From the IMG/VR virus record IMGVR_UViG_3300035180_001962, positions 1 through 39,061 of that record: 39,061 nucleotides of DNA. One strand, written 5' to 3'. Under the pieces are notes generated by a model. It made no database searches. It was given only the letters and a program-made list of their open reading frames with translations, and was not told where the DNA came from. Shown here piece by piece: positions 3,853 to 39,061 of this stretch (within the stretch, counting starts at the first letter, position 1; every line of letters begins with the position of its first letter). This DNA is from a virus. Made by a program: the position numbers and the translations under genes.

Positions 3853-3862
3853 TTGATCTGCC

Positions 3863-3892
3863 ATGAAGGGATAGGAATTCCTATCCCTTCAT
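3863..3892 (+). terminator. Perfect 30-base palindrome downstream of capsid gene
   Basis: The 15-base arms (ATGAAGGGATAGGAA and its complement) abut with no spacer, beginning 11 bases after the capsid stop. In RNA this would form an approximately 13-bp hairpin with a small loop. There is no T tract, so termination may be partial, or it may protect the 3' end of the capsid mRNA or be processed. Confidence 0.7.
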
Positions 3893-3915
3893 GCATCATA
3901 TTAACCTCCACAAAC

Positions 3916-17432: not shown

Positions 17433-17915
17433 ATGGCTTTACCTAATAAACAATCTTATGACGGCTTAAATGGAGAAATGGTTGACTATAAAGATCCAGA
17501 AAATCCTACTTATGATTTACCTGCCGAATGTAGTAATGAATTAAGAGCAGATACTGCTGCAATGACTGCCACTTGTGATATTGTATTCTTTACATTTACT
17601 ACAGATGGCGCCAATATGTTTGTTACTATGCATGATTCAGTGTATGGTAATGATATTAGTTATATTCCAATTGGTTTATACAACTCAGTAGGTGATTATG
17701 ATTTTACTTTACCTGCTTCAGTTGTAGATGCTAGAGGAAAAACTAAATATCTTAATTTAAGATGTGGTTATGGTAATACTGATTATCTATATGGTTTAGT
17801 ATCAGTTAAGATTACTAGCGCTAATACTATTAAAGTAATCTTAACTGATAGTTCTGGACCATCACAAAGTGATCCTCCAAATCCAACTGATAAAATAACA
17901 ATCTTTTTGAAATAA
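17433..17915 (+). CDS. Hypothetical tail/baseplate-associated protein
   Basis: The protein has 160 residues and sits between gp47- and gp48-like genes. It is beta-rich, with repeated aromatic/Gly-Asn turns (GYGNTDYLYGLVSVKITS), and ends in a Pro/Asp-rich segment followed by KITIFLK. The gene is preceded by AGATTCTACGAAAAGGAATA, whose first 15 bases also form the core of the 18-base tandem repeat at 34130-34173. I recognise no family. A small baseplate accessory is likely from context. Confidence 0.55.
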   Translation: MALPNKQSYDGLNGEMVDYKDPENPTYDLPAECSNELRADTAAMTATCDIVFFTFTTDGANMFVTMHDSVYGNDISYIPIGLYNSVGDYDFTLPASVVDARGKTKYLNLRCGYGNTDYLYGLVSVKITSANTIKVILTDSSGPSQSDPPNPTDKITIFLK

Positions 17916-22887: not shown

Positions 22888-23220
22888 TTACTCATCAGAT
22901 TTGCAAGTAAAATAATTCTCATCTACTTGGTGAGGATGGAATATCGTTCCAAACTTAGCGCATTGTCTGCAATCACTCGACGGTGGTTTACCACTACATA
23001 AAGACTCTGCACAATAAACTTTACAAATAGAAGGTTCAGCACAAGTGCCGACTTTATATTCTTGCCACAATTCCAGAGATCCTGGACAGGCATTATCTTT
23101 ATTTAAATCAGCCCCTACGATTGCATCAGAGCAAGTTAAACAAGGTTCCTGTTCAACATATACAGTTGGAGCGCATCCAACCATTAAACCGCACATTATC
23201 AAAAACATTATCTTTTTCAT
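22888..23220 (-). CDS. Cysteine-rich lipoprotein
   Basis: The protein has 110 residues. A signal peptide (MKKIMFLIMCGLMVGC) has a lipobox LMVGC with Cys16 as lipidation site. The mature part has about a dozen cysteines, including PCLTC, TCAEPSICKVYCAESLC and DCRQC, which suggests several disulphide bonds in the periplasm or on the outer membrane. SD AGGATAATAAA. Phage lipoproteins often block superinfection or alter the envelope; that role is inferred. No family recognised. Confidence 0.7.
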   Translation of the reverse strand: MKKIMFLIMCGLMVGCAPTVYVEQEPCLTCSDAIVGADLNKDNACPGSLELWQEYKVGTCAEPSICKVYCAESLCSGKPPSSDCRQCAKFGTIFHPHQVDENYFTCKSDE

Positions 23221-24433: not shown

Positions 24434-24889
24434 TTAAAGATTCAGATATTTTTCTTTTTCTCTCTCTTCAGACATAAAATGACCTTTCATAGATAAAGAT
24501 AATTTCTTTTTGTGTTCATCTGAATATTTTCTACCTTTGCTTGCTAATCCTATTTTTATTTTAGTTTCTTCTGACATTTGATGATATCCTCCATCTCCGC
24601 CTTTTGTAGCATTAGTTAAATTGCAACCAATAGATTTATAATATTCTATAAGTCCTATCTCAGCTTGAGGAAGCTTTTCGGCAGTTTCATATTTTTCAAT
24701 AATATACATTTCTGCTTTCTGATCTTTGGCTAGCAGAGATTTAATCCAATTATTCTTATAAGTTTTAGATTTTAAATCTGAAGCACAATGGTGTCTATTA
24801 TACCTTCTAATTTGATTAGACGTATATCCTATGTATCTTAATTCGTGCGTATTAGGATCTATTAATCCATATATTATATGTTGTTTCAT
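24434..24889 (-). CDS. GIY-YIG homing endonuclease with NUMOD3 repeats
   Basis: The protein has 151 residues. The N-terminal domain has HIIYGLID and RYIGYTS as GIY and YIG strands, a basic helix (RRYNRHHC) and AEIGLIEYYKS with the catalytic Glu near 77-82. GCNLTNATKGGDGG follows. Residues 106-145 hold NUMOD3 DNA-binding motifs (SEETKIKIGLASKGRKYSDE). It is free-standing, on the minus strand, with no intron seen. Such genes spread by cutting related phages. No SD is visible. Confidence 0.85.
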   Translation of the reverse strand: MKQHIIYGLIDPNTHELRYIGYTSNQIRRYNRHHCASDLKSKTYKNNWIKSLLAKDQKAEMYIIEKYETAEKLPQAEIGLIEYYKSIGCNLTNATKGGDGGYHQMSEETKIKIGLASKGRKYSDEHKKKLSLSMKGHFMSEEREKEKYLNL

Positions 24890-25760: not shown

Positions 25761-25888
25761 AATGTTATACGTGATGGCTGTTATGTATAGTGAGTGAGAG
25801 TCCTATTCTCTATCCCCGCCCCCCGGGGGGCGGGGACCGTTCCTATACCTATCTATACTTCATATAACGTATAACACCATATAACATT
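25761..25888. other. Origin-like imperfect inverted repeat with G/C-only palindromic centre
   Basis: Outer arms AATGTTATA (25761-25769) and TATAACATT (25880-25888) are exactly equidistant from the centre of a perfect 22-base palindrome made only of G and C (25814-25835). Between them the arms share TGTTAT/TATAG blocks with gaps. Copies of TGTTAT or its complement occur at 25763, 25779, 25863, 25870, 25880 and 25920. Position just upstream of the helicase gene suggests a replication origin or an extruding cruciform. No gene lies here; a hairpin ATGCGG/CCGCAT (25935-25962) precedes the helicase SD. Confidence 0.55.
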
Positions 25889-25974: not shown

Positions 25975-27375
25975 ATGAAAATTAATAATATTTTAGCTAT
26001 CGCCATTACCAAAATTCATACGGCTCATAAATCAAATGAAATGAAAGAGTATGAAATTGGCAAATTAATTGATTTTGAAGAAGATGAAGAATTAAAAAGT
26101 GGTATTAGACAATATTGGAACTCTTTTAATGAGCCAAAAATTAAAGTCGCTCCAATTCAAACAATCAAACCAGTATCTGAGTGGACTAGTAACAATCTTC
26201 AGTTAGACAATAGAGGAAACATCATGACCAATAATTCTACCAATTTATTTACTATTTTAACTGAGAATCCTAAATTCAATAATCGTTTATCATTTAATGA
26301 ATTAACGAGTCAATATTGTTACGACGGCAAAGAAATTCATGATTTAGATTATACTCAACTTCAATTAGATATTTGCACTGAATTAAGAATAAATTTCAAG
26401 AAAACTGATGTTTGCTCCATGGCAGAATTAATTGCTAAGAAAAATCCATTTCATCCAATCAAAAACTATTTAACAGGAGTTAAGTGGGATCAACAAGATT
26501 ATTTATCCATATTTCTTAAAGCAATGAATATTGAATCAAATGATATTAATTTATCAGTTTTCAAATGCTGGTTAGTTTCAGCAGTAGCTCGCATTATGAA
26601 ACCAGGTTGCAAAGTAGATAGTATTCCAGTCTTTCAAGGTACTACTGGAAATCGTAAATCATCAGCTTTAAAAGCTCTTATGCCAAATGAAGAATGGTTT
26701 ACGGATGAACCAGTAGATTTCGGAACTAAAGACTCAAAACAAATGTTATTAGGTAAATGGTTTGTGGAATTGGCTGAGTTATCTTCTTTTAATAAGAAAG
26801 ATAACAATTTAATCAAATCAAATATTACTCAAACTGTTGATGAATTTAGATCTCCTTATGATCGTAAACCAAAAAAATATCCTCGTCAATTCGTTTACAT
26901 TGGAACAACAAATGATGCAGAGTTCTTAACTGATTCAACTTCTAATCGTAGATTCTGGGTTCTTCAAAATGAAGGATTAATTGATGTTGATTTGATTACA
27001 GAAATTAGAGACCAATTATGGGCGCAAGCATATTCAATGTTTATCAAGGGCGAAAAATGGTGGTTAACTAGAGATCAAGAACAATCAATGGCAGAAATAG
27101 CTGCTCAATTTGAAGTGAAAGATGCTTGGTATGATTCTGTTGTTGCTTATCTTGAAGACAAAAAATTCGTTACAACTTCTGAAATTTTGATGAATTTAAA
27201 AGGAGATTTATCAAGAACAGATAATAATGATAAGAATAGAGTTGTTAAGATTATGCAATATCTTAAATGGACGGCAAGAGCTGGTAGAAAAGATGGAGAT
27301 TGTGTTAGCGGTTGGCACAATCCTAAATCAATAAAAGGTAAAGAATTAATCTCTGGCGTTTCAGATTGGAATTAA
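25975..27375 (+). CDS. VapE-family helicase / primase-associated ATPase
   Basis: ATG 25975 has AAAGGA at 25963-25968 and gives 466 residues; an ATG at 25912 lacks an SD. The core has NPFHPIKNYLTGVKWDQQD, Walker A GTTGNRKSS (222-230), Walker B KWFVELAEL (261-269), a sensor strand YIGTTND (308-314) and NRRFW (324-328). These identify the virulence-associated E family, SF3-like helicases of phages and islands. With no polymerase encoded, it is likely the phage replication initiator, loading the host replisome at the adjacent origin-like repeat. Confidence 0.85.
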   Translation: MKINNILAIAITKIHTAHKSNEMKEYEIGKLIDFEEDEELKSGIRQYWNSFNEPKIKVAPIQTIKPVSEWTSNNLQLDNRGNIMTNNSTNLFTILTENPKFNNRLSFNELTSQYCYDGKEIHDLDYTQLQLDICTELRINFKKTDVCSMAELIAKKNPFHPIKNYLTGVKWDQQDYLSIFLKAMNIESNDINLSVFKCWLVSAVARIMKPGCKVDSIPVFQGTTGNRKSSALKALMPNEEWFTDEPVDFGTKDSKQMLLGKWFVELAELSSFNKKDNNLIKSNITQTVDEFRSPYDRKPKKYPRQFVYIGTTNDAEFLTDSTSNRRFWVLQNEGLIDVDLITEIRDQLWAQAYSMFIKGEKWWLTRDQEQSMAEIAAQFEVKDAWYDSVVAYLEDKKFVTTSEILMNLKGDLSRTDNNDKNRVVKIMQYLKWTARAGRKDGDCVSGWHNPKSIKGKELISGVSDWN

Positions 27376-27377
27376 AA

Positions 27378-27986
27378 ATGCATTACATATACCAAATAAC
27401 AAATCTTAAAAATATTAATAAAATTTATATTGGTCAAAGTACTGATCCTGACAAAAGATGGAAAGAACATCAAGAAAAAAGCACATCAGTTTCATTAAGA
27501 AAAGATATTAAAAAATATGGAATTGATAATTTTGAATTTAAAGTTATCGAAGAAACAGAAAGTCAAGAAGAAGCTAATGATTGGGAGATTAATTTAATTG
27601 CTAATAATGAATGTATAGATAAAGGATATAATAGCGTTCCTGGTGGCATTTTAACAAGACTAGTTCATAAATGTGATAAATGCGGTCATGAAATAAAATA
27701 TTCAAATAGAAGAGATAAAAAGGGTGGAGAAGGAATGGTTTTCTGGAAAACAGAAGGATATACGAGAAAAATAACTGATTTGCAAATATTATGCAAACAA
27801 TTCATAAATGGTTGCGATCCGGGACATGAAGAATATCCATTATCTAGAGAATTATCAGTTGATACAATGGGATCTATGTATAGTGATTATGATATGCCGG
27901 ATCATATTGCTCATAAATACATGATGGTGGATGGTAAAATCGATACATTTTTTACATATCAATATCTTAAGAAGAAGAGAGCTTGA
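27378..27986 (+). CDS. GIY-YIG endonuclease with CxxC zinc-finger-like segment
   Basis: ATG 27378, two bases after the helicase stop, is the likely start (202 residues); an earlier ATG lies inside the helicase gene. The nuclease domain has YIYQITN, IYIGQST, Arg27 (RWKEHQ), Glu70 (NDWEINLI) and GYNSVPGG. A CDKCGHEI segment at 99-106 may bind zinc. The C-terminal half is not recognised. The frame stays open for 59 codons past the TGA. Likely a mobile homing nuclease that inserted behind the helicase. Confidence 0.8.
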   Translation: MHYIYQITNLKNINKIYIGQSTDPDKRWKEHQEKSTSVSLRKDIKKYGIDNFEFKVIEETESQEEANDWEINLIANNECIDKGYNSVPGGILTRLVHKCDKCGHEIKYSNRRDKKGGEGMVFWKTEGYTRKITDLQILCKQFINGCDPGHEEYPLSRELSVDTMGSMYSDYDMPDHIAHKYMMVDGKIDTFFTYQYLKKKRA

Positions 27987-34019: not shown

Positions 34020-34135
34020 TCGTAATACTAACATTAATTATAGCTCTTCCAACAATCGCTGTTATCATGGCTAATTTATCAAAATATAAAACTCCATATA
34101 AATCTCGTTCAGGATACAATAAGAGCATAGACTAG
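34016..34135 (+). CDS. 39-residue membrane peptide
   Basis: Starts at ATGA of the previous gene. MIVILTLIIALPTIAVIMAN is a membrane helix, followed by a short basic tail (KYKTPYKSRSGYNKS). Its stop lies in the first copy of a tandem repeat. Function is unknown. Confidence 0.5.
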   Translation: MIVILTLIIALPTIAVIMANLSKYKTPYKSRSGYNKSID

Positions 34136-34173
34136 ATTCTACGAAAAGACTAGATTCTACGAAAAGACTAGAT
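34130..34173 (+). repeat. 18-base tandem repeat, 2.4 copies
   Basis: GACTAGATTCTACGAAAA occurs at 34130-34147 and 34148-34165, followed by GACTAGAT. Its core AGATTCTACGAAAAG also precedes the gene at 17433. It lies between the membrane peptide and tRNA-Thr. Confidence 0.8.
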
Positions 34174-34588: not shown

Positions 34589-35122
34589 ATGGCACATTCA
34601 GAAACTAAACTATCACCAGCATTAATAGCTGAGTTATCAAAACGTAATTCATTAGGTAGTGGCTATAGAGCTTTACAAGAATGGTTATCAGGGACTCATA
34701 AAATAGAATTATCACATATTACAATTCGTAAGAAGATATTGGCATATCGTGAGGACAATTATGAGTTATCAAAAGAACTGCGCGCTGAAAAGAAAGAACA
34801 GTTATCTATTACTATAGATTCTGATTTAGCACTTATTCAACATGAGATTGATGCAATGTTAAAGATTGCCGCTGAATGTGAAGCTAAGAAAGATAAACGT
34901 AATCGTATGGCTGTTACTGATAGATTAGCTAAGTTAGTTGATTTGCGTAGAAAATTCTGTGGTGTTAAAACTCCTGAAGAAGAAATTGCTGATAGAGGTC
35001 CAATTGCCTCAGATACATTAATGAGTAGATTGGATGATTTAATTGAAAGACGTAAAGCTGATAAAGAACCTATTGTTTCTGATTGGATTGAACCAGAAAC
35101 AGTTATCGGTAAATCCAATTGA
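34589..35122 (+). CDS. Putative terminase small subunit
   Basis: The protein has 177 residues and SD AAGGA. It has an N-terminal HTH-like region (SKRNSLGSGYRALQEWLSGT, then HITIRKKILAYRED) and a central helical domain (DSDLALIQHEIDAMLKIAAE), the layout of small terminases. The C-terminal part is acidic/basic mixed. It precedes the large terminase by one gene. Its final codons lie within a perfect 27-bp inverted repeat, so the gene end may carry a packaging or regulatory site. Confidence 0.65.
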   Translation: MAHSETKLSPALIAELSKRNSLGSGYRALQEWLSGTHKIELSHITIRKKILAYREDNYELSKELRAEKKEQLSITIDSDLALIQHEIDAMLKIAAECEAKKDKRNRMAVTDRLAKLVDLRRKFCGVKTPEEEIADRGPIASDTLMSRLDDLIERRKADKEPIVSDWIEPETVIGKSN

Positions 35123-35203
35123 TTCCGCGATAAATGTATGGAATACGTATATACGTTGACGCATAACAGCAATAGCACATTTATCGCGGAATCAATTGGA
35201 TTT
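35111..35203. repeat. Perfect 27-bp inverted repeat with 39-base spacer
   Basis: The left arm 35111-35137 (starting AAATCCAATTGATTCC) matches the inverted right arm 35177-35203 at all 27 positions. The spacer starts with the ATG of the next gene and contains palindrome ACGTATATACGT (35145-35156). The element covers the small terminase stop codon and the start of the gene at 35138. It could be a hairpin regulator, a packaging or recombination site, or an assembly artefact. Confidence 0.85.
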
Positions 35204-35398
35204 CAATGTTTATTAGTTAAATTAGTAGATGATATGGCGCAATATCAATTCTATAAATTACCTAGATACAACATGACATGGCTATTTGCATTAGATATAG
35301 ATGATGATGTAAAAGCATTGCCGCCTAATACTATACTATTGTCTAATAAAGAGATTGCTGCTTATCAAAAAGCCGATGCTCTTAAATCTTTCTGGTGA
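35138..35398 (+). CDS. Hypothetical protein starting in the hairpin loop, ending LKSFW
   Basis: The protein has 86 residues. There is no SD: the ATG is the first base triplet after the left arm of the 27-bp inverted repeat, so its start would lie in an RNA hairpin loop. Residues 14-22 (TFIAESIGF) are encoded by the right arm. The C-terminus QKADALKSFW resembles LKAFW/LKAFR of other genes. The true start may differ, and the 5' end may have been altered by the repeat. No family recognised. Confidence 0.55.
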   Translation: MEYVYTLTHNSNSTFIAESIGFQCLLVKLVDDMAQYQFYKLPRYNMTWLFALDIDDDVKALPPNTILLSNKEIAAYQKADALKSFW

Positions 35399-35443: not shown

Positions 35444-36943
35444 ATGATACAAGATCAAACAGAATTAAGCTCAATTGATGAACCAATTGCAGTTGAAGAT
35501 TTACCTATAGTTAGAGAGTTATCTAAAGCAGACCATTTTGCCGCATTATCAGATAAAGATAGAGAAGATATCTTATCTAAGATGACAGATGCAGATAAAG
35601 AATCATTAGCATATGATTGGAACTTCTGGGGGCGACCAAAACAAATAGCACCTCCAGGTGATTGGAGATATTGGTTAACATTAGCAGGGAGAGGTTACGG
35701 AAAAACCGTACTTGCAGCTAATTATATTATTCAAGAAGTATATAAAGCCGAAAAGAAAGGTAAGAAGTTAATCATTGGTTTATTTGGTAGTAACTTTGCT
35801 GAAATTGAAAAGGTAATGATAACTGGTAAATCTGGTATACTTAATCAAGGTAATCCAAAGAATAGACCTACCTGGGTCGGTGGTAATAAAAGAGAATTAA
35901 CCTGGAGAGATAAGAATGGTAAAGTAATAGCTATAGCTTATGCTATGACAGGAGAGAAACCTGATGCTATTAGAGGATTCGAGTTTGATTTAGTATGGAT
36001 TGATGAATTAGCTAAGTTTAAATACTTATCTAAAGTCTGGGACCAATTAAAGTTTGCCAGCGGTCGTATTGAACCACCAAAAACTATTATTACTACTACT
36101 CCTAAACCATTAGCTCTATTAAGACAATTGGTTGATAATCCTAAATGTCATGTAACTAGAGGTTCTTCTTATGAGAATCATTTGTTATCTGAAGATTATA
36201 TTGAAGAAATTAATCAATTCAAAGGAACTAGATTAGGCGCACAAGAGATATTTGGAGCTATATTAGATGATGCGAAAGGAGCATTGTGGTCTAGAGATTT
36301 AATTAAGAAGCTTAGTTTAATTGAATATCAACAGAAGTATCATAAAGATTGGAATAAAGATATTCCATTTACTATGCAAGACTTCTTAAAAGATATGTTA
36401 TTAATAGTTATTGCGGTAGATCCTGCAACGACTGTAACAATTAAATCAGATGAAACTGGTATTATAATAGCTGCTAAAGATAAACAAGGTTATGGATACA
36501 TAATTGATGATTTATCAGGTAAATATACAGTAGAGCAATGGGCTACAATAGTTAATAAAGCATATCTTAAATATGGCGCCAAATTAGTAATAGCTGAAAC
36601 TAATCAGGGCGGAGATATGGTTGAATACTCTATGAAGAGCATTAATAAAAGTATTAAAGTTAAAAAGATACATGCTAAAGATGGTAAAATAGCTAGAGCA
36701 GAACCAATATCATTACTTTATGAACAAGGTAAAATAATTCATATGAAGGAAAACTTCTTATTATTAGAAGATCAGATGTGTAATTTCGTTGGTAAACATA
36801 TAAAGCCAGATGAGGATGATGTAGATATTGGATCTAAAATATTATCACCAGATCGAATGGATGCTATGGTTTACTCTTTAACTGAGTTATTTTTACAAGG
36901 TAAAAGAGAACCAGCTAGAGGAATGATGGATTTTGACTTTTAA
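35444..36943 (+). CDS. Terminase large subunit
   Basis: The protein has 499 residues, SD AAAGGA. The ATPase has Walker A AGRGYGKT (81-88), Walker B DLVWIDE (182-188) and coupling motif ITTTP (216-220). The nuclease domain starts at IVIAVDPATT (321-330) with Asp325, then IIDDLSGKYT, VIAETNQGGD and a final SPDRMDAMVYSLTEL. All catalytic motifs are intact. It cuts and pumps DNA into the procapsid; the circular assembly suggests headful packaging. Confidence 0.9.
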   Translation: MIQDQTELSSIDEPIAVEDLPIVRELSKADHFAALSDKDREDILSKMTDADKESLAYDWNFWGRPKQIAPPGDWRYWLTLAGRGYGKTVLAANYIIQEVYKAEKKGKKLIIGLFGSNFAEIEKVMITGKSGILNQGNPKNRPTWVGGNKRELTWRDKNGKVIAIAYAMTGEKPDAIRGFEFDLVWIDELAKFKYLSKVWDQLKFASGRIEPPKTIITTTPKPLALLRQLVDNPKCHVTRGSSYENHLLSEDYIEEINQFKGTRLGAQEIFGAILDDAKGALWSRDLIKKLSLIEYQQKYHKDWNKDIPFTMQDFLKDMLLIVIAVDPATTVTIKSDETGIIIAAKDKQGYGYIIDDLSGKYTVEQWATIVNKAYLKYGAKLVIAETNQGGDMVEYSMKSINKSIKVKKIHAKDGKIARAEPISLLYEQGKIIHMKENFLLLEDQMCNFVGKHIKPDEDDVDIGSKILSPDRMDAMVYSLTELFLQGKREPARGMMDFDF

Positions 36944-37033: not shown

Positions 37034-38536
37034 ATGAAATATAAACAATTAAACACAAAGCATCCTGAATACGACCACAAACAGTATGACCAATACAATG
37101 CGTTATATGAAGGTGGCAAAACATTTGAAAAGTTTAAACCTCAATTCTTAACTAAAAATGAGATTGAGCCGCCACAAATCTTTAAATCAAGACAAGATAA
37201 CGCCGAGTATCAAAACTTTGTTGGTCCAATTATCGATCAATTTGCAGCTCAACTATTTAGTTCTCCATTTAAGATTACGTCAGAAGACGATAAACCTTTG
37301 GATTCATTTTACACTGAATTTCAAAGTGACGTGGATGGGGGCGGAGCTGATTTAGTTAATTTCATGCAAAACAGTTTTATTAATGCTGTTGTTAAAGGAT
37401 GTTCATGGTTTGTGGCTGAAATGCCTGCATTACCTGATGATTTAGCTGCTATGAAAGCTGCCAACCAATTATCTATTGATCAAATGGATAAGTCTGGATA
37501 TCGCAGAGCTACTTTATGTGCAGTAGATAATTCTCAAGTATTTGATTATGAAATGGATAATTATAAAAGATTATCTATTGTCAAAATTCATAAATGTGAA
37601 TCATTATTGAATCCAGCTACTATGGATCGTTCATTTATTACTGAAACATGGAAAATCTATGATTCACAATATATAACTACTTATGTTCATACTTATAAAC
37701 AAGAAGATGTAAATAAGATAGATCCTGAGTTAGAGATTAAACCAAAAAGTCAAGTTAAGCATGGTTTTGGAGCTGTTCCGGTTTTAACATTGGAATTTCC
37801 TCCTGGATTATGGATAATGAATAGAGTTGCATCTGCACAGATTGGTCATTTTAGATCATCTGCACAATTGGACTGGGCTCAAAGAAACTGTGCATTTCCG
37901 ATGCCTGTATTTAAGTCTGTTGATAAAGGAAGTCCTCCTGTTCTTGGAGCAGGGAGATGGATATTGATTGATTCTGAAGAGGAGTTTGATTTTAAAGCTC
38001 CATCATCTGATTCTTTTGCTTCTTTGGCAGAAAGAATTGAATCTAAGAGAGTTGAAATTTTCCGTGTGACTCAACAAATGGCTGCTGGAATAAGTAACAC
38101 CGCCGTAATAGGTCGTTCTGCTGATTCTAAAGCTATGGATACAGCCGCAACAGAGATATGCTTACAAGCATATGGAAGATATGTTAAAGAAGCTGTGGAA
38201 GAGATTTTTGAACTTGTTAGTAATGCTAGAGGAGAAATTGAAGTAGTATTTTCTGTTGAAGGAATGAATCAATTCAATCCTGAAGACGTAACTTCTACTA
38301 TGGCTAATTTAAAAGCTTCTAAAGAATTAGTTCTTCATTCTCCAGATTACTTGAAAGAAATAGAGTTGAAAATATCTAATATCATGCTTCCAGACCTTGA
38401 TGGTCCTAAGAAGGATTTAATTACTAAACAAATAGAAGATGCTTTTGCTGTTTTAACTTCTAAATTAGAACCTGGATCCTCATTATTAGAGCCTCCGTCA
38501 GATCCGTTGGTTAAAAAAGACAAGCAAATCTCATAA
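37034..38536 (+). CDS. Portal protein (DUF4055-like)
   Basis: The protein has 500 residues with SD AAGGACC. It contains YNALYEGGKTFEKFKPQFL near the start, then NFVGPIIDQFAAQLFSSPF and LDWAQRNCAFPMPVF, ARVEIFRVTQQMA-like and DTAATEICLQAYGRYVKEAV helices, the layout of DUF4055 portals. It follows the large terminase as usual. The dodecamer would form the DNA entry channel and recruit the terminase. Confidence 0.8.
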   Translation: MKYKQLNTKHPEYDHKQYDQYNALYEGGKTFEKFKPQFLTKNEIEPPQIFKSRQDNAEYQNFVGPIIDQFAAQLFSSPFKITSEDDKPLDSFYTEFQSDVDGGGADLVNFMQNSFINAVVKGCSWFVAEMPALPDDLAAMKAANQLSIDQMDKSGYRRATLCAVDNSQVFDYEMDNYKRLSIVKIHKCESLLNPATMDRSFITETWKIYDSQYITTYVHTYKQEDVNKIDPELEIKPKSQVKHGFGAVPVLTLEFPPGLWIMNRVASAQIGHFRSSAQLDWAQRNCAFPMPVFKSVDKGSPPVLGAGRWILIDSEEEFDFKAPSSDSFASLAERIESKRVEIFRVTQQMAAGISNTAVIGRSADSKAMDTAATEICLQAYGRYVKEAVEEIFELVSNARGEIEVVFSVEGMNQFNPEDVTSTMANLKASKELVLHSPDYLKEIELKISNIMLPDLDGPKKDLITKQIEDAFAVLTSKLEPGSSLLEPPSDPLVKKDKQIS

Positions 38537-38569: not shown

Positions 38570-39061
38570 ATGGTAGGACAATATTTATCAACAGATCCAG
38601 ATTTTCCGGTTGAAGGCGAAATTAATATGCCAAGACTTGATGATAAGCGTCAAATGCTTGTTTCAGGTCTTGATGCTATCGCTTTAAATACAGGACATAT
38701 ACCTCCTGCTGGACAGCGAGTAATGTCAAATTCATTACCTGTTGTAATTGCATCAGATCAAACTCTGATACCAGTTAGAGAACAATATGCACCAGTTGCA
38801 GAAGATAATGCGGCTGGAAGGTTTTTAGTTGAACAACGTAATTCATATACAAATATTACTACTGCAACTACTACGGTAGTTAAATCAGGGGCTGGATTTC
38901 TTCATTTAATTATGGTTAATTCTGCTGCTGCCTTAGCAACTATTATTCTTTATGATAATACTGTTGTTTCAGGAACTAAGATTGCAATAATCACAATGCC
39001 TGGAGTTCTTTTGGCAAATCAAGCTAATTTTAGATATGATGTATCTTTTAATACTGGACTT
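38570..39061 (+). CDS. Virion-associated protein, N-terminal part (continues at 241-288)
   Basis: ATG 38570 has AAAGGAAA upstream and reads MVGQYLSTDPDFPVEG. The frame is open to the window end and continues over the join to TAA 288, giving about 179 residues. LPVVIASDQTLIPVRE is a common phage structural motif (VVIASDQ.xIPV). In this copy five C-to-T differences from 1-240 change Ser to Leu, Thr to Ile twice, and Ala to Val twice. It sits between portal and lectin-like genes, suggesting a decoration protein. Confidence 0.75.
   Translation, partial: MVGQYLSTDPDFPVEGEINMPRLDDKRQMLVSGLDAIALNTGHIPPAGQRVMSNSLPVVIASDQTLIPVREQYAPVAEDNAAGRFLVEQRNSYTNITTATTTVVKSGAGFLHLIMVNSAAALATIILYDNTVVSGTKIAIITMPGVLLANQANFRYDVSFNTGL
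38822..39061 (+). repeat. Terminal overlap, right copy (pairs with 1-240)
   Basis: It is identical to 1-240 except for five C-to-T changes at 38934, 38946, 38964, 38967 and 38988, all within 55 bases. This shows circular closure of the assembly with two variants present. Confidence 0.9.

Follow-up and report, generated by a model that had tools for sequence, protein, structure and literature searches.

What does a long, perfect inverted repeat do between the terminase genes of a phage, and how did it come to be there? The question is raised by virus record IMGVR_UViG_3300035180_001962 (IMG/VR; 39,061 bases), the whole of which is the window analyzed here. A first-pass annotation of this DNA had proposed that the repeat could be an RNA switch hiding a start codon, a packaging (pac) or recombination site, or the footprint of a small mobile element. 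As a whole, that interpretation is partly supported by our results, which add two features that it had not remarked upon, i.e., a reading frame shared by the genes on either side of the repeat's stop codon and a break in codon use.

Matches to tail sheath, baseplate and major head proteins, in addition to a large terminase (TerL) and a portal protein, identify a contractile-tailed phage. A 240-base overlap between the ends of the record, with five mismatches, closes the assembly into a circle of ~38.8 kb. At each mismatch between the overlapping segments (1-240 and 38822-39061), the start of the contig has C where the end has T, and all five differences fall at second codon positions of one reading frame, with the changes S>L, T>I, A>V, A>V, and T>I; the contig ends are two variants of one small gene situated between the portal and head genes. 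The features around the repeat are as follows:

34589-35122, plus strand: presumed small terminase gene (TerS), 177 aa, with a good Shine-Dalgarno (SD) sequence (AAGGA), assigned by position and a helical model
35111-35137, plus strand: left arm of the perfect inverted repeat, containing the TerS stop codon (TGA)
35138-35176, plus strand: 39-nt loop between the arms, starting with the ATG of ORF2 and holding a 12-bp palindrome (35145-35156)
35177-35203, plus strand: right arm, the exact reverse complement of the left arm, forming codons 14-22 of ORF2
35138-35398, plus strand: ORF2, 86 aa, in the same frame as the presumed TerS and lacking an SD
35444-36943, plus strand: TerL gene (Terminase_6N/6C), with its own SD, outside the hairpin
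37034-38536, plus strand: portal protein gene

The repeat and its surroundings

The two error-free 27-base arms described previously were confirmed: all 27 pairs are Watson-Crick, with no G-U pair and no mismatch. The right arm lies within the next gene, as had been stated, while the placement of the left arm needed refinement, in that it does not simply end the upstream gene but spans the last three TerS sense codons, the stop codon (35120-35122, bases 10-12 of the arm) and 15 nt beyond it. To judge how unusual such arms are, we used 150 dinucleotide shuffles of the window, in which perfect inverted repeats within 600 bp reached 16 bp at most, and four stretches of real phage DNA (38.5, 50, 41.7, and 45.3 kb; 175.5 kb in total), in which the longest was 17 bp and loopless. 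Since neither set approaches 27 bp, the arms are not a product of chance; the hairpin is present in the assembled sequence, far exceeds chance expectation and is single. The 12-base palindrome in the loop (ACGTATATACGT), also pointed out in the first-pass annotation, is present at 35145-35156; however, with 18 perfect palindromes of 12 bp in the window, this one carries no weight by itself and was dropped as evidence.

Other repeats occur elsewhere in the window. A perfect loopless 32-bp palindrome lies at 3862-3893, shortly 3' of the major head protein gene and with no T run, and loopless palindromes resembling it are also present in an Acinetobacter phage. At 25813-25836, upstream of the gene for a VapE-like helicase, is a perfect palindrome rich in G+C (TCCCCGCCCCCCGGGGGGCGGGGA; the phage as a whole has ~34% G+C), possibly an origin or a regulatory site. 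The helicase gene is itself flanked by putative GIY-YIG homing endonuclease genes (24434-24889 and 27366-27986). An exact 18-bp tandem repeat (AGACTAGATTCTACGAAA) is found at 34129-34164, directly 5' of a tRNA-Thr gene, and a stretch resembling it (AAGATTCTACGAAAAGG) precedes the gene at 17433. An Rfam search of the window returned four tRNAs and nothing else. The protein encoded at 22888-23220 showed a weak likeness to a cytidine deaminase (E 0.015-0.037), which was set aside because the sequence reads as a Cys-rich putative lipoprotein.

The small terminase assignment of the upstream gene, made in the first-pass annotation, stands as a presumption whose two grounds are gene position and a structure model. 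No family match was obtained for the protein, even at permissive cut-offs. The model, built from the single sequence, is mostly helical and of moderate confidence (mean pLDDT 67), and a Foldseek search with it gave nothing better than E 0.67. Alignment of TerS and ORF2 with the small terminases of distant phages likewise revealed no meaningful similarity. The TerL of this phage is at most ~39% identical to those of deposited phages, and the portal protein shares 33% identity with the one in MW202476, in which the presumed TerS counterpart (168 aa) adjoins TerL directly.

Among the records accessible to the searches, scans of viral contigs with ORF2, TerS and the portal found no relative, with or without the arms, and a TerL scan of viral contigs yielded four relatives (35-38%), in one of which only ~50 bp are present upstream of the TerL match. 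No second copy of the site occurs in the window, and no long-armed copy was found in viral contigs or in plasmids. Exact arm words were detected in viral contigs (6) and genome contigs (7), which is about the number estimated by chance, and in unrelated contexts with no second arm; a two-arm search pattern gave 20 matches in viral contigs, again about the chance number by estimate and with arms of 9-11 bp only. Both sets were set aside. The hairpin is a striking single case with nothing to compare it to.

Proposed coupling of ORF2 to TerS translation

We tentatively favor, with less than even confidence, the reading that a recent template-switch inverted duplication created an mRNA hairpin that couples translation of ORF2 to that of TerS; both the origin and the working of the hairpin are inferred. 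Results of RNA folding showed a free energy of -48.9 kcal/mol (z -8.2), and 0 of 200 shuffles was as stable. In this fold, the mean unpaired probability is 0.001 for the TerS stop codon and 0.22 for the ORF2 ATG. The proposal of an RNA switch that hides a start therefore holds insofar as the stop and, largely, the ATG are buried; however, we saw no sign of a ligand or sensor, and "coupling hairpin" describes the site better than "switch". When the left arm was covered as far as 35137, as a modeled ribosome would do, the unpaired probability of the ATG rose to 0.73, compared with ~0.14-0.20 when cover extended only to 35132-35134.

In the mechanism that we envisage, the hairpin, single-copy at the presumed terS/ORF2 junction, would be read into the terminase-portal mRNA, where a stem of 27-30 bp would bury both the TerS stop and the ORF2 start. 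A ribosome finishing TerS at 35120-35122 would cover the left arm largely or completely and thereby open the stem, after which the same ribosome could start again, without a change of frame, at the ATG lying 15 nt downstream. As previously noted, the loop opens with this ATG (35138-35140), which lacks an SD; no SD core was found either there or at the internal ATG at 35234, whereas all 33 well-supported plus-strand genes that were tested have one. Because the stem would bury the start and ORF2 lacks a ribosome-binding site of its own, ORF2 would not be produced unless TerS is translated, while TerL, with its own SD outside the hairpin, would be little affected. As modeled, the geometry of the site is that of termination-reinitiation coupling.

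Hairpin-gated coupling is known from genes VII and IX of phage f1 (PMC12548453). As in f1, a long RNA hairpin lies near the downstream start, where it would prevent initiation in the absence of upstream translation (PMC12548453). Unlike the f1 genes, which overlap (-4 nt; PMC12548453), TerS and ORF2 are separated by a gap of +15 nt, the start is located in the loop and lacks an SD, and coupling here is predicted only. Counting against the coupling reading, the ATG is well exposed only with cover as far as 35137, and predicted structure just downstream of an upstream stop is reported to correlate with weaker coupling (PMC12548453). ORF2 also has no protein homologue and no confident fold, and so may not be a gene.

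With regard to origin, polymerase template switching could have produced a recent local inverted duplication, which would explain both the uniformly Watson-Crick pairing of the arms and the lack of a second copy. Template switching is reported to homogenize the arms of inverted repeats and to be a source of perfect repeats within coding genes (PMC8604942). The present site resembles such quasipalindrome repeats (PMC8604942, PMC7202029) in having perfect arms in coding DNA and a spacer under 70 bp (27/27 pairs and 39 nt, respectively). However, in examples described in PMC8604942, arms reach up to 16 bp, much shorter than 27 bp, which counts against this origin. No relative close enough to provide a sister or ancestral sequence with an imperfect or absent arm was found. 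Elsewhere in the window, a perfect 17-bp inverted repeat with a 17-nt loop (17800-17850) lies within the coding gene 17433-17915 and exceeds the longest repeat of the 150 shuffles, which hints that template switching may be ongoing in this lineage.

Other explanations

The remaining explanations are taken in descending order of probability. A 93-bp palindromic element (31 codons) could have been inserted in frame, splitting a longer gene into TerS and ORF2, which we regard as unlikely. The presumed TerS and ORF2 occupy one frame on the same strand, with a single TGA between them, inside the left arm, and a stop-to-start gap of 15 nt; the element also consists of whole codons throughout (9 in the left arm, 13 in the loop and 9 in the right arm). 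In addition, when 776 gene segments of the phage are ranked by coding score, ORF2 codons 1-22 fall in the lowest 0.13%; the most non-coding segment (35114-35188) scores 10.7 bits vs. 9.3 for the most extreme segment among 35 other genes, and the score recovers at once 3' of the right arm. The lack of an SD at ORF2 also agrees with a split gene. However, the coding test separates this segment by a small margin, and a shared frame has a prior of 1 in 3. TerS alone is, at 177 aa, comparable to the 168-aa presumed counterpart in MW202476.

Comparable palindromic elements sit inside coding genes of Rickettsia, and bacterial MITEs offer a further comparison. Like these, the site is palindromic, of in-frame length and within a coding stretch. 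Unlike them, it has no related copies that we could find, being single in the window with no long-armed counterpart in viral contigs or plasmids, and it has no target-site duplication, the longest flanking direct repeat being 3 bp; neither of the two marks of such elements, multiple copies and target-site duplication, was found. The mobile-element footprint suggested in the first-pass annotation thus gains from the in-frame length and the break in codon use and loses from the missing duplication and second copy. A more elaborate form, in which the 93 bp are an in-frame intervening element of the terminase gene whose stop codon ribosomes pass by readthrough, bypass or reinitiation, giving TerS plus a regulated C-terminal partner or fusion, seems very unlikely.

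Long perfect stems are substrates of RNase III, and the hairpin, a long perfect RNA stem, could be a processing or mRNA-stability structure that separates terS from the terL-portal message, the 5' part of ORF2 being non-coding. This explanation, which we judge improbable, accommodates the low coding score of the loop and the right arm as well as the missing SD at ORF2; it does not account for the ORF2 frame being open across the element (chance ~12%), and there is no terminator-like T run 3' of the right arm. An intrinsic terminator was rejected, as no T run follows a G+C-rich, short-loop stem.

The repeat might instead act as DNA, i.e., as a site of pac or cos cleavage, of recombination or of a single-strand replication hairpin. 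Pac sites are often found at the end of the small terminase gene, which is where this repeat lies if the upstream gene is correctly presumed, and the perfect dyad folds as DNA at -31.3 kcal/mol (z -8.8). Nevertheless, the 39-nt loop is asymmetric about the dyad, no recombinase, invertase or protelomerase match was obtained in the subset of ORFs scanned, and the contig closes elsewhere, through its 240-base end overlap, which says nothing for a cut at the hairpin. We consider a DNA-level role quite improbable.

A low probability is also given to an assembly or library artefact in the form of a local fold-back. The contig is from an uncultivated virus, its arms are perfectly identical, no relative is available to confirm them and its ends already differ at five sites. 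On the other hand, the sequence does not continue into its own reverse complement; it runs into intact genes in the normal order (presumed TerS, TerL, portal) on both sides of the repeat, which is unlike a simple fold-back join.

Programmed recoding, i.e., TGA readthrough or ribosome bypass of the hairpin to fuse TerS and ORF2, is scarcely credible: the single frame, single stop codon and strong structure at the stop recall the hairpin at an in-frame stop in T4 gene 60 (PMC3014915), where bypass has a GGA landing codon and a 50-nt gap, but the hairpin base here has no identical take-off and landing codons (GGT at 35108 vs. GGA at 35198) and the distance is 93 nt.

If the coupling of ORF2 to TerS is true, the packaging operon of this phage would contain a start codon that is opened only by a terminating ribosome, a very strict and easily tested arrangement. 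If the in-frame palindromic insertion is true instead, the locus would be a phage gene caught in the course of being split.
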